Below, piece by piece: positions 1,277 to 4,524 of a DNA stretch of 55,922 nt (position 1 is the first letter of the stretch; each line of letters starts with the position of its first letter). The DNA is from Arcobacter sp. (lineage in GTDB: Bacteria > Campylobacterota > Campylobacteria > Campylobacterales > Arcobacteraceae): the NCBI GenBank assembly GCA_002869565.1, contig PKUJ01000008.1, positions 1 through 55,922 on the forward strand, read 5' to 3'. The notes under the pieces are model-generated. The model had not been told where the DNA came from. It made no database searches and worked only from the letters and a program-made list of their open reading frames with translations. A program made the translations under genes and the position numbers.

Positions 1277-1393
1277 ATGGATTAGGAAGAACTGCGAAAC
1301 TTCCTGATAAAATTTAAAAAAATGCGAATTTTTAAGTTTTCCAACTTTGTTTCCTTGTGTGTAAAAAAGCCCCTTTTTAAGGGGCTTTTTTTT
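1277..1393 (+). ncRNA. Structured small RNA, copy A
   Basis: About 117 nt with its own promoter and Rho-independent terminator and no open reading frame (the ATG near its 5' end is followed by a stop two codons later). Three stem-loops can be drawn. Hairpin 1 pairs TTAGGAAG (1282-1289) with CTTCCTGA (1300-1307). Hairpin 2 pairs TTTAAAAA (1313-1320) with TTTTTAAG (1329-1336). The third is the terminator. Both apical loops display TGCGAA. A second copy at 2273-2391 keeps the same folds, with base changes that preserve pairing in hairpin 1 and in the terminator, which is good evidence for a functional RNA. I do not recognise a named RNA family. It could be a trans-acting small RNA or a protein-binding decoy RNA. 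Confidence 0.7.
1363..1393 (+). terminator. Rho-independent terminator of small RNA A
   Basis: Stem GCCCC/GGGGC (1369-1373 with 1381-1385), loop TTTTTAA, followed by eight T. The stem can be extended by the A-tract before it pairing with the T-tract. Confidence 0.85.
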
Positions 1394-1459
1394 GCAAAAA
1401 ATTTAGAATATACCCCTTAAATTAAAATATTAAGCATAATCAGTTAAGTTTAAATAAAG

Positions 1460-1488
1460 ATTGCATATGCAATAATTGCATATGCAAC
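1460..1488 (+). promoter_or_regulatory. Tandem palindromic operator in front of the MarR gene
   Basis: TTGCATATGCAA occurs twice (1461-1472 and 1476-1487), centres 15 bp apart. The first copy is a perfect 14-bp palindrome, ATTGCATATGCAAT. The sites end 13 bases before the start codon of a MarR-type regulator and lie just downstream of a possible -10 (GCATAAT, ending 1440). MarR dimers bind such palindromes, so autorepression is likely (inference). Confidence 0.75.
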
Positions 1489-1500
1489 AAAAGGATAGCA

Positions 1501-1917
1501 ATGAATTATGCATTAAAAGACTCTATAGCTTATCGATTGATTCGTGGTGCGAATAGTGTTAATAAAACTCTAAATAAAAAACTATGTTCTTATGAAATCG
1601 CTATAGAACAAAGAGCAACTTTAGAGATTATTAAATATGAAGAGGATGTTAATCAAACAAGAATTGCTACTCTTTTAGGAAAAGATACTGCAACTATAAG
1701 CCGTTCTTTAGACTCTTTGGAAAAAAAAGGACTGGTTAGTAAATCTGAACAATCAGGTGATAGAAGAAGTAAAAAGGTAGAGATAACAAAAAAAGGTGAA
1801 TCCGTACTTGAAGAGACTTTATTAGAAGTTGGATCTTATAGGGAATCACTAAATTCAAAGTTAACTCAAGATGAGATTGAGGCGTTTTTTAAAATCATGA
1901 ATAAGTTAGAATTATAA
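1501..1917 (+). CDS. MarR family transcriptional regulator
   Basis: A 138-residue winged-helix DNA-binding protein, typical size for MarR. The recognition region is LLGKDTATISRSLDSLEKKGLVSKSEQ (residues about 58-84), followed by the wing GDRRSKKVEITKKG, the most conserved MarR signature. N- and C-terminal helices would form the dimer interface. The start is well placed behind AAAGGATAGCA. Two tandem palindromes just upstream suggest it represses itself. The next gene follows after 53 bases and may be co-transcribed; the pair is bracketed by the twin small RNA genes. No transporter or degradative enzyme sits beside it, so the inducer cannot be guessed. One cysteine (Cys29) is present, which leaves redox sensing possible but unsupported. 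Confidence 0.88.
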   Translation: MNYALKDSIAYRLIRGANSVNKTLNKKLCSYEIAIEQRATLEIIKYEEDVNQTRIATLLGKDTATISRSLDSLEKKGLVSKSEQSGDRRSKKVEITKKGESVLEETLLEVGSYRESLNSKLTQDEIEAFFKIMNKLEL

Positions 1918-1970
1918 TAATTTTACAATGGTAGAAAAACTTTTTTTAAAATAATTTAAAAGGACAAATA

Positions 1971-2216
1971 ATGAACGGTTATGTAAGAATTTCAAATGAA
2001 CTTTATCATGAGTTTGAAATGGCAGCAAAAAGAAAGCAAGAGTGCGAATTAACATTTGTAGATAATAAAGATGAAATAAATATAAAAACAAAAATCAAAA
2101 AATTTGATAATATTGATGGTACTGAGTATATGGATACTGAGGATGGAAATAGAATAAGATTAGATAGAATTGTATTATTTAATGGTGAAGAAACGAAAGA
2201 AATGAATCATTATTAA
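1971..2216 (+). CDS. Small protein resembling Rho-binding antiterminator (Rof/YaeO)
   Basis: An 81-residue acidic protein behind a clear AAAAGGAC ribosome binding site. Its layout resembles Rof (84 residues in E. coli): an N-terminal helix rich in charged residues (YHEFEMAAKRKQECEL), then a short beta-rich stretch ending in GNRIRLDRIVLF. This matches the family pattern of an acidic strand region closed by a conserved RLDKI-type motif. Rof binds Rho and blocks its RNA-binding site. No membrane segment or signal peptide is present. It sits between MarR and the second small RNA gene. The family call is by eye on weak similarity. If wrong, it is an uncharacterised small cytoplasmic protein. Confidence 0.45.
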   Translation: MNGYVRISNELYHEFEMAAKRKQECELTFVDNKDEINIKTKIKKFDNIDGTEYMDTEDGNRIRLDRIVLFNGEETKEMNHY

Positions 2217-2222
2217 TTTTCT

Positions 2223-2266
2223 ATTAACCTTTTATTAGGTTTTAGTTAATTGTATTCCCGTATAAT
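2223..2266 (+). promoter_or_regulatory. Promoter of small RNA copy B
   Basis: TATAAT at 2261-2266 with the same upstream blocks as copy A (ATTAAC-TT-TATTAG, then TTAGTTAATTGT) at identical spacing. Predicted transcription start is near 2273. The region starts seven bases after the stop of the preceding gene. Confidence 0.6.
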
Positions 2267-2272
2267 TTTTAA

Positions 2273-2391
2273 ATGGATTAGGAAGAACTGCGAAACTTTC
2301 TAATAAAATTTAAAAAAATGCGAATTTTTAAGTTTTCCAATTTTGTTTCCTTGTGTGTAAAAAAGGCTCCTTTTTAAGGAGCTTTTTTTTT
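2273..2391 (+). ncRNA. Structured small RNA, copy B
   Basis: About 119 nt, nearly identical to the RNA at 1277-1393. Hairpin 1 is TTAGGAAG (2278-2285) with CTTTCTAA (2296-2303). Relative to copy A, the G-C to G-U and G-U to A-U type changes all keep the pairing. The second hairpin, both TGCGAA loops and the linker GTTTCCTTGTGTGTAA are conserved. In the terminator the middle C-G pair becomes T-A, a compensatory change. The two copies lie about 1 kb apart in the same orientation, each with its own promoter, so they are separate genes and not a processed pair. Function is unknown. Confidence 0.7.
2361..2391 (+). terminator. Rho-independent terminator of small RNA B
   Basis: Stem GCTCC/GGAGC (2366-2370 with 2378-2382), loop TTTTTAA, followed by nine T. 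Confidence 0.85.
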
Positions 2392-2478: not shown

Positions 2479-4524
2479 ATGCCTCTATCAAATCTAAATG
2501 AAGAACAATTAAGTGCAGCAACGTGTGAACGAGGATATAACCTTATTATAGCAAGTGCTGGGACAGGTAAGACTTCAACTATTGTTGGAAGAATTGCAAA
2601 CTTAATTAATAATGGAACAAAACCAGAAGAACTACTCCTTTTAACTTTTACAAATAAAGCCGCTGCTGAAATGGTAGCACGTGTTGCCAAATTTTTTGGA
2701 AAAGACGTTGCTAAACAGATTATGGCAGGAACCTTTCATTCTGTTTCTTATAAACTTTTAAAACAGCTTGAAGTAAATATTACTTTAAAACAACCAAATG
2801 AATTAAAAACACTTTTTAAATCTTTGTATGAAAAAAGAGTATTTATGGATAGAGATGATGATGCAAATCCATATGATGGCGGATATTTGTATGATATGTA
2901 TTCTTTATACCTAAATTCAAATGAGGGTGAAGATTTTGGAGAATGGATTAAAGAAAAAAATCCTGCTCACGAACTCTATACGGCTATATATGAAGATGTT
3001 GTAATTGAATTTAATGAATTAAAAATAAAATATGGATATGCAAATTTTGATGACTTATTAACAATTATGTTGAAGACTCTAAAAGAACAAGATTTTGATT
3101 TCAAAGAAATTCTTGTAGATGAATATCAAGATACTAACCCCTTACAAGGGAGACTATTGGATGGATTTAAGCCAAAATCTCTTTTTTGTGTAGGTGATTA
3201 TGATCAAAGTATTTACGCATTTAATGGTTCAGATATAGGAATTATTTCTACATTTTCAACTAGATATAATAATGCAACAGTATTTACACTTAGAAAAAAT
3301 TATCGCTCAACTAGACCAATTTTAGAACTAGCTACAAAAGTGATTGAACACAATGAAAGAGTCTATGAAAAAAATCTTCAAGTTATGAGAACAGAAGATA
3401 CGTTTAGACCAAAACTTTTAGAATTTACTGAGTTATTTCAGCAATATCATCATATATCTGATCTTATTTCAAAAAGTTCAACTCCTCATAATGAAATGGC
3501 AATTATTTATAGAAACAATTCAAGTGCAGATGGGATTGAAGCAAATTTACGAGAATATGGGATTCCCGCAAAAAGAAAAGGTGGAATGTCTTTTTTTGAT
3601 TCAGTAGAAATAAAATTTGTTCTGGATGTTCTTGTAATGCAACTTTCTCATAATGATATGATGGCCTTTATTCACGTACTTGAACTTGGAAAAGGAATAG
3701 GAAAAGCTATTGCAAAAGATATCTTTGATGCTTTGATAAAATTAGGTCATGGAGATATGTTTAAAGGCTTATTTACTCCTGATTCAAGTATTAAAAATCC
3801 CTATGAATCTAATAAAATAAAAAATATCCAATTGGGTCTTTTTGATGATTTTATAGAATTAGGTTCTATCTCAAAATTTAAAGATTGCAATTTTGAGGAA
3901 GCTTTTCTTTCTAATCCTATTTTAAAACATCCAAAATTAAATGTCGATGGTGCAAAATATATTTATGATTTTTATTTACTTTTAAAACATTTAAGACGTA
4001 CAAAAAATCCCGATTCTTTAGTGACTAGTATAACTAGTTCAATGATGTATTCAAAAGTTAAAGAGTTCTTAGCAATTAAAAGAGCCACTCAAAAAGATGG
4101 AACAATTAATGCCGTTCATAAAGCAAAAGCTTTAGCTAAAATAAATAGAAAAGTCATGATTATTAAACAGCTTTCAAAAAACTTTCATGACCTTTCAAAG
4201 TTTGTAAACTCAATGATTTTGGGTGGAAGTGAGATGAGTGAAGGTGATGGAGTAAATTTACTTTCTGTTCATGCAAGTAAAGGTTTAGAGTTTAAAGAAG
4301 TTTATGTGATAGACCTTATGGATGGACGATTTCCTAATAGAAAGCTTATGAGTAAAGGTGGAAGTTTGGAAGAAGAGAGACGACTTTTTTATGTGGCCGT
4401 TACCAGAGCAAAAGATATTCTATATTTAAGTTTCGCAAAATATGACAAAGTAAAAAAGATGGACTTCATATATTCTCCTTTCTTAAAAGAAGCTGGGTTA
4501 GTAGGAAAAGATGAAAATACTTAA
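2479..4524 (+). CDS. UvrD/Rep/PcrA-family ATP-dependent DNA helicase
   Basis: A 681-residue superfamily 1A helicase, normal length for UvrD/Rep enzymes of this phylum. All motifs are present in order: Q-motif NEEQLSAA (8-15), Walker A ASAGTGKTS (25-33), motif II DEYQDT (214-219), motif III GDYDQSIYAFNG, motif IV RKNYRSTRPI, motif V NLLSVHASKGLEF, and motif VI ERRLFYVAVTRAKD near residue 635. It unwinds DNA 3' to 5' during repair or replication-fork restart. The C-terminal Tudor-like tail typical of PcrA is absent or short, so I do not choose between uvrD and rep. It is transcribed alone behind the terminator of small RNA B. Confidence 0.9.
   Translation: MPLSNLNEEQLSAATCERGYNLIIASAGTGKTSTIVGRIANLINNGTKPEELLLLTFTNKAAAEMVARVAKFFGKDVAKQIMAGTFHSVSYKLLKQLEVNITLKQPNELKTLFKSLYEKRVFMDRDDDANPYDGGYLYDMYSLYLNSNEGEDFGEWIKEKNPAHELYTAIYEDVVIEFNELKIKYGYANFDDLLTIMLKTLKEQDFDFKEILVDEYQDTNPLQGRLLDGFKPKSLFCVGDYDQSIYAFNGSDIGIISTFSTRYNNATVFTLRKNYRSTRPILELATKVIEHNERVYEKNLQVMRTEDTFRPKLLEFTELFQQYHHISDLISKSSTPHNEMAIIYRNNSSADGIEANLREYGIPAKRKGGMSFFDSVEIKFVLDVLVMQLSHNDMMAFIHVLELGKGIGKAIAKDIFDALIKLGHGDMFKGLFTPDSSIKNPYESNKIKNIQLGLFDDFIELGSISKFKDCNFEEAFLSNPILKHPKLNVDGAKYIYDFYLLLKHLRRTKNPDSLVTSITSSMMYSKVKEFLAIKRATQKDGTINAVHKAKALAKINRKVMIIKQLSKNFHDLSKFVNSMILGGSEMSEGDGVNLLSVHASKGLEFKEVYVIDLMDGRFPNRKLMSKGGSLEEERRLFYVAVTRAKDILYLSFAKYDKVKKMDFIYSPFLKEAGLVGKDENT

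Follow-up and report, generated by a model that had tools for sequence, protein, structure and literature searches.

The window analysed here, a 55,922-nucleotide stretch of DNA corresponding to contig G000:C20 of a 3.49-Mb Arcobacter sp. assembly, carries two nearly identical small RNA (sRNA) genes that genuinely belong to a new sRNA family, so far confined to the Arcobacteraceae. The family and its structure, a regulatory box that it shares with htrA, the regulator genes linked to htrA and an enrichment of complementary sites at the starts of genes for exported proteins were all shown computationally. As the sRNA combines an htrA-type control box with an exposed stretch that matches the start signals of outer-membrane protein genes, it probably switches those genes off, and this duplicated sRNA of marine Arcobacter relatives would probably do so when the envelope is damaged.

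Twin sRNA genes and their family

A sequence-only reading of the window had placed two transcripts of about 118 nt here, and both genes were found on the forward strand, at positions 1277–1394 (copy 1) and 2273–2391 (copy 2), with 95% identity over 131 bases. The TATAAT promoter element, two hairpins and intrinsic terminator that it described are present in each copy, with GCGAA in both hairpin loops and an unpaired linker ahead of the terminator. In copy 1, whose 5′ end was inferred from the −10 box, hairpin 1 (1282–1307, GCGAA at 1294–1298) and hairpin 2 (1309–1340, GCGAA at 1324–1328) are supported by both the predicted fold and covariation. They are followed by the linker TTTGTTTCCTTGTGTGT (1346–1362), which is proposed to be a Shine–Dalgarno (SD)-masking seed on the basis of its conservation, its unpaired state in the minimum free energy (MFE) structure and the enrichment of its targets, and by the terminator (1363–1393), which was assigned from the fold. 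Copy 2 was delimited by its fold and its homologues; folding places hairpin 1 at 2278–2303 (GCGAA at 2290–2294), hairpin 2 at 2305–2336 and the terminator at 2359–2390, while sequence comparison shows that its linker (2342–2358) is identical to that of copy 1. The MFE z-scores were −3.8 for copy 1 and −2.5 for copy 2 (200 shuffles each), with no shuffled sequence folding as well as native copy 1 and two folding as well as native copy 2.

Differences between the two copies had been put forward as compensatory changes. This stands for the terminator, where a C-G pair is replaced by U-A with both sides changed, but not for hairpin 1, where the changes (G-C to G-U and U-G to U-A) keep pairing and are one-sided, and hence are not compensatory. 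Copy 2 also has an extra G in its terminator. Selection on RNA structure, which had been claimed from this comparison, is a weak conclusion from two copies alone and a strong one with 47 homologues. A small coding ORF was considered and rejected, as copies of the C34 type do not retain the ATG-GAT-TAG/TAA found at the 5′ end.

Covariance-model searches, which had been suggested as a check, were run, and the stems covary across the 47 copies. Standard pairs fill 94.6% of paired cells, and 29 of 32 pairs have changes on both sides. Shuffled alignments average 43.3 double-sided changes, compared with 190 here. The covariation score reaches 0.426, versus 0.168 after shuffling and at most 0.161 when pairing partners are slid. 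These counts lean towards the structure, as a model had fitted the 47-copy alignment to it. An 11-sequence MAFFT alignment gave a covariation score of 0.190 versus 0.137, while its count of further pair types was below that of nearly all shuffles (498 of 500 were at least as high). A model built from a plain MAFFT alignment kept the terminator only; a hand-set structure took its place, followed by a realigned model.

Across 60 genomes, blastn detected the family in 19, including all 16 congeneric ones (that of the window among them); the three from outside the genus (G018, G027 and G034) are weak matches. Model R2 identified the family in 34 of 104 Arcobacteraceae genomes. Model R3, which was based on the 47 copies, raised this at E ≤ 0.01 to 68 of 104 genomes, spread over 10 of 20 genera, a count that includes weak matches with E above 1e-3, as scored. 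Among 298 genomes sampled across the class, 16 matched; 15 of these belong to the Arcobacteraceae and one is a borderline match outside it (E = 0.003). One search returned 18 matches of which nine were outside the Campylobacterota and were taken as chance, and a scan of viral contigs for the sRNA gave no match. Close tandem twins, about 0.2–1 kb apart, occur in eight genomes (G000, G002, G004, G007, G013, G027, G110 and G111), with a spacing of only about 0.2 kb in G002, G004 and G013.

No Rfam family matched the twins at the gathering score or came near its threshold, in agreement with the earlier view that no named family fits them. At E-values of up to 5, there were 43 Rfam matches in positions 1200–2450 and none was near its curated score; the best at E ≤ 5, RsaE, reached 31 of 79 bits and was taken as chance. 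Titles and abstract openings in the open literature revealed no paper describing the family. A screen of intergenic regions in Arcobacter sp. L left several Arcobacter-only motifs unnamed in the accessible part of that study (PMC6429828), and the sRNA family may be among them. The accessible part of a paper that covers C. jejuni RNAs (PMC3847290) makes no mention of the family.

The window genome encodes a third close copy (C34:46288–46417, 75% identity) and, in addition, two divergent relatives. A UvrD-type helicase gene (2479–4524; Pfam) lies 3′ of the twins, and the start of the same helicase is found near 28 of 45 sRNA loci compared, or at 25 of 41 distinct sites once the overlap of four pairs of loci is taken into account. 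The helicase-flanked position looks like the ancestral site, with the remaining loci representing further copies or non-matching loci. The twins are separated by a MarR-family regulator gene (1501–1917, forward strand; Pfam) and, between this gene and copy 2, an 81-aa ORF with no Pfam match (1971–2216, forward strand). Homologues of either were not found in 12 sRNA loci that were searched, including that of G007, where the twins have a similar 1-kb spacing.

The promoter box and the htrA-linked regulator

Beyond what the sequence-only reading had described, each twin features four repeats at 11-bp steps upstream of TATAAT. This box of TTAAY-type repeats and the −10 element spans positions 1217–1270 in copy 1 and 2213–2266 in copy 2 (both forward strand, exact pattern matches), and recurs in most homologues and upstream of htrA. 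Five exact matches were found in the window genome, four of which are sRNA-type genes: both twins, the C21 relative and a gene at C25:201490, the fifth being a TonB-dependent receptor gene at C16:306942 (L137; Pfam) that has the box in its own promoter. In this stricter form, the box has two mismatches at htrA of the same genome and at the C34 copy. The C25:201490 gene (L141) features two GCGAA motifs, three predicted hairpins and the linker TTCTCC, and is located about 4 kb from mlaA; the covariance model gave no match to it at E ≤ 0.001, and it was found via its promoter.

When the repeats were relaxed to TTWAY, a form chosen after the htrA promoters had been seen, the box was present with at most one mismatch in 43 of the 47 sRNA copies. 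The misses are L003 (two mismatches), L085 (three), L091 (six) and L093, where the contig is too short. The same form was present upstream of htrA in 27 of 28 loci, a count that leaves out L171 at a contig end, and the single miss (L195 in G016) encodes a 50%-identical protein; no htrA match at 1e-80 was found in G026. In comparison, none of 92 background genes had a box with fewer than three mismatches, and evenly spaced stretches from four relatives, 400 kb in total, contained none with zero or one mismatch and five with two. If up to three mismatches are allowed, the stricter form occurs about as often as its reversed control (27+17 versus 18+17), so only matches with zero to two mismatches were read.

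In all 28 loci checked (L167–L194), the gene immediately after htrA encodes a response regulator, and these proteins are 75–100% identical to that of the window genome. The latter is an OmpR-family protein (Response_reg and Trans_reg_C domains) and its gene is followed by one for a HAMP/HisKA kinase, which NCBIfam assigns to the ArsS family (388 bits versus a cut-off of 250). The sRNAs therefore share a regulatory box with htrA and its linked two-component genes.

The linker, the loops and translation starts

Conservation of the sRNA across genera is highest in the unpaired linker UUUCCUUGUGU, the complement of which includes a Shine–Dalgarno sequence, and TTTCCTTGTGT is present in 38 of 47 copies. 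Two GCGAA motifs are present in 30 copies, one in eight and none in nine. The sequence-only reading had suggested that these loops (as TGCGAA) either contact targets or bind a protein. Target contact is not supported as their main role, as the linker is retained in every one of the nine copies that lack GCGAA (five of eight in g11, two of six in g13, and those of g3 and g19) and matches the ribosome binding sites (RBSs) of envelope genes. Divergent paralogues in the genus of the window (L079 and L081–L084) show the reverse, as they keep at least one GCGAA and have another linker, which features CTCC in four of the five. Loops that are lost while the linker is kept, and linkers that change while GCGAA is kept, indicate that the two behave as separate modules, and the loops may bind a protein. 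L086 and L087 (in G060 and G077) have the same hairpins with the linker TTGTTCTCCTTA or similar, which is apparently a changed seed.

In 34 genomes, the 11-nt linker complement ACACAAGGAAA occurs at 139 places, with the sRNA genes themselves counted, and the reversed control at 67; except for eight in G016, G020, G023 and G029, all 139 places either were read or are sRNA genes. Of the 32 genes with this sequence at the RBS, 20 encode exported proteins, compared with 27 among 198 background genes (Fisher p = 1.5e-8) and 3 among the 20 background genes that have a plain AAGGAAA (p = 8e-4). No two of the 32 genes share the same first 60 residues, but orthologues count separately, and those of related genomes are not independent. 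Counting by protein family gave 12 exported of 17 (p = 8e-7). Export was called by a simple home-made signal-peptide rule, which scored one MlaA protein (L245) as not exported. An upstream-stop filter had dropped L243 (a TonB receptor) and L295 (MlaA), both exported, along with prs of G002, and prs of G004 (L204) lay outside the range counted in the 32 genes; with four dropped rows restored, 22 of 36 are exported (p = 7e-9). Pfam names among the exported proteins are MlaA, TonB-dependent receptor (four), OmpA, HP_OMP_2, DUF3373 and SBP_bac_3 (two), while two have no family. The non-exported exceptions are prs (nine genomes), a phosphopantetheine-site protein and three others. Computationally, the sRNA thus has what defines an SD-masking sRNA: a conserved unpaired seed that is complementary to the starts of a coherent set of genes.

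A 9-mer target pattern was not enriched across 10 genomes (98 versus 113 for the control) and fell at mixed genes, and most 11-mer sites in g11 are inside coding sequence. Only prs has the 11-mer at its RBS in the window genome, where the match extends to 12 nt at prs, covers 10 nt at mlaA and is interrupted at ompA. The prs gene (L230, G000:C5:26899) encodes a cytoplasmic nucleotide-synthesis enzyme that is outside the envelope theme; its 11-mer is kept in nine genomes of two genera, and it is directly upstream of ompA.

The mlaA gene was followed as one orthologue across 29 genomes, of which 22 are in the genus of the window and g13. At 10 of these 22 mlaA starts and at none of 198 background starts, the sequence agrees exactly with the linker complement over 10 nt or more, the longest match being 14 nt, and nine of the 10 cover the SD sequence, the exception being G014. 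For 17 of the 22, the predicted duplex with the linker of the window ranks among the best 2.5% of background energies, and it is unremarkable for the other five (G002, G004, G007, G009 and G011). It is also unremarkable in the seven genomes from other genera, five of which carry an sRNA with this linker and yet have no match at mlaA (G062, G071, G085, G017 and G033). The set of targets seems to vary from genus to genus, as the mlaA link is seen in two genera and was not seen in g11, g3 or g19. Several mlaA genes keep CACACAAGG in otherwise diverged surroundings.

The linker core UUUCCUU complements the generic SD sequence AAGGA(AA), and AAGGA is present in 101 of 198 background start regions, which would fit a general anti-SD decoy that affects any AAGGA-bearing mRNA and has no specific targets. 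We consider such a decoy very improbable, given the extension of the core to UUUCCUUGUGU in 38 of 47 copies, the preference of the 11-mer for exported-protein genes over genes with plain AAGGAAA, and the retention of CACACAAGG by mlaA genes. The loops could instead dock an RNA-binding protein that the sRNA titrates, in the manner of CsrB/RsmZ and CsrA and with no mRNA pairing. The 38 copies with at least one GCGAA and the persistence of this motif in paralogues with changed linkers favour this reading, as does the result for Hfq (PF17209), which was not found in the window genome by a search whose control was positive in five of 14 known genomes. Titration is nevertheless quite unlikely, as it does not explain why nine copies without GCGAA retain the linker, nor why the linker matches envelope RBSs. 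CsrA sites feature a GGA core, and RNAs of the CsrB/RsmZ type carry multiple GGA motifs in hairpin loops; here the loops carry GCGAA and no GGA, and titration of CsrA was set aside.

A further alternative concerns the signal. Direct repeats of 11 bp are typical of the whole OmpR/PhoB family, and the NCBIfam profiles shown for the response regulator were all below their cut-offs, so its signal is not readable from sequence. A different OmpR-family regulator, such as that of a phosphate or acid/osmotic system, could therefore control htrA and the sRNAs in response to something other than envelope damage. We regard this as unlikely on balance, since the regulator gene is directly behind a box-bearing htrA, an arrangement expected of an autoregulated operon, and the candidate targets are envelope proteins.

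A proposed envelope-stress circuit

We favour, with reasonable confidence, a reading of the twins as trans-acting base-pairing sRNAs of an envelope-stress regulon that are made without Hfq, where transcription, regulator binding and activation, pairing and repression are the steps that we infer. The four 11-bp repeats beside the −10 element would be bound by a response regulator of the OmpR family, most likely that whose gene follows htrA, which would thereby raise the sRNAs together with htrA. Each RNA of about 118 nt is predicted to form two hairpins and a terminator that leave the linker UUUGUUUCCUUGUGUGU unpaired, and this linker would pair with CACACAAGGAAA-type RBSs in mRNAs for outer-membrane and periplasmic proteins (MlaA, TonB-dependent receptors, OmpA, porin-like and solute-binding proteins), and also with prs. 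Such pairing would block ribosome entry and ease the burden on a damaged envelope, in which HtrA would clear misfolded protein. Pairing may proceed with no chaperone, or may be helped by another protein, perhaps via the GCGAA loops.

The best reading is that the twins work like OmrA/OmrB or MicA/RybB, to which they are unrelated in sequence. OmrA and OmrB of the Enterobacteriaceae are twin sRNAs under an OmpR-family regulator and act on TonB receptors and other outer-membrane proteins. Near-identical adjacent twins are likewise found here in eight genomes, and an equivalent regulator and targets are proposed. However, the OmrA/OmrB seed is at the 5′ end and these sRNAs are Hfq-dependent, whereas the seed proposed here is in the linker before the terminator of an sRNA whose genome yielded no Hfq. 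The OmrA/OmrB Rfam model had no match at the gathering score, nor was it among the 43 matches at E-values of up to 5 in positions 1200–2450. MicA, RybB and CpxQ, which belong to the sigma-E and Cpx responses, shut off outer-membrane protein synthesis alongside induction of a periplasmic protease. The logic proposed for the twins is comparable, in that a stress regulator would raise sRNAs that shut off this synthesis, but the regulator would be a two-component response regulator. The MicA Rfam model scored 24.2 bits on this region of the window against a gathering score of 41.

In C. jejuni, htrA adjoins cprRS. CprRS is an OmpR-like system that is tied to the cell envelope (PMC9449129, PMC7887314), and the regulator proposed here is comparable as an OmpR-family protein with a putative link to the envelope. 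The accessible parts of these two papers do not mention an sRNA in the CprRS regulon. H. pylori, which belongs to the same phylum, has neither Hfq nor ProQ, and its sRNA NikS targets outer-membrane proteins, according to the accessible part of PMC8322730. NikS and RepG are therefore comparable to the twins in their phylum and in the lack of Hfq (as searched in the window genome), but the twins have no Rfam sRNA match and their paired GCGAA hairpins are not mentioned in that part of the paper.

More tentatively, the paired GCGAA-loop hairpins could be a modular docking platform for an RNA-binding protein that replaces Hfq. Paralogues would share this platform and the stress-box promoter but exchange one linker seed for another (UUUCCUUGUGU or UCUCC type), such that one stress regulator would control sRNAs with different target lists; this is possible, though we lean against it. 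Post-transcriptional envelope control is best known from bacteria with Hfq. If the favoured reading of the twins as envelope-stress sRNAs is correct, the Arcobacteraceae would have independently evolved the same circuit, built from a two-component stress regulator, a protease and a duplicated sRNA that reduces the synthesis of outer-membrane proteins. This reading would also provide testable regulators, targets and base pairs, and the GCGAA loops would be a lead towards an Hfq substitute in the Campylobacterota.
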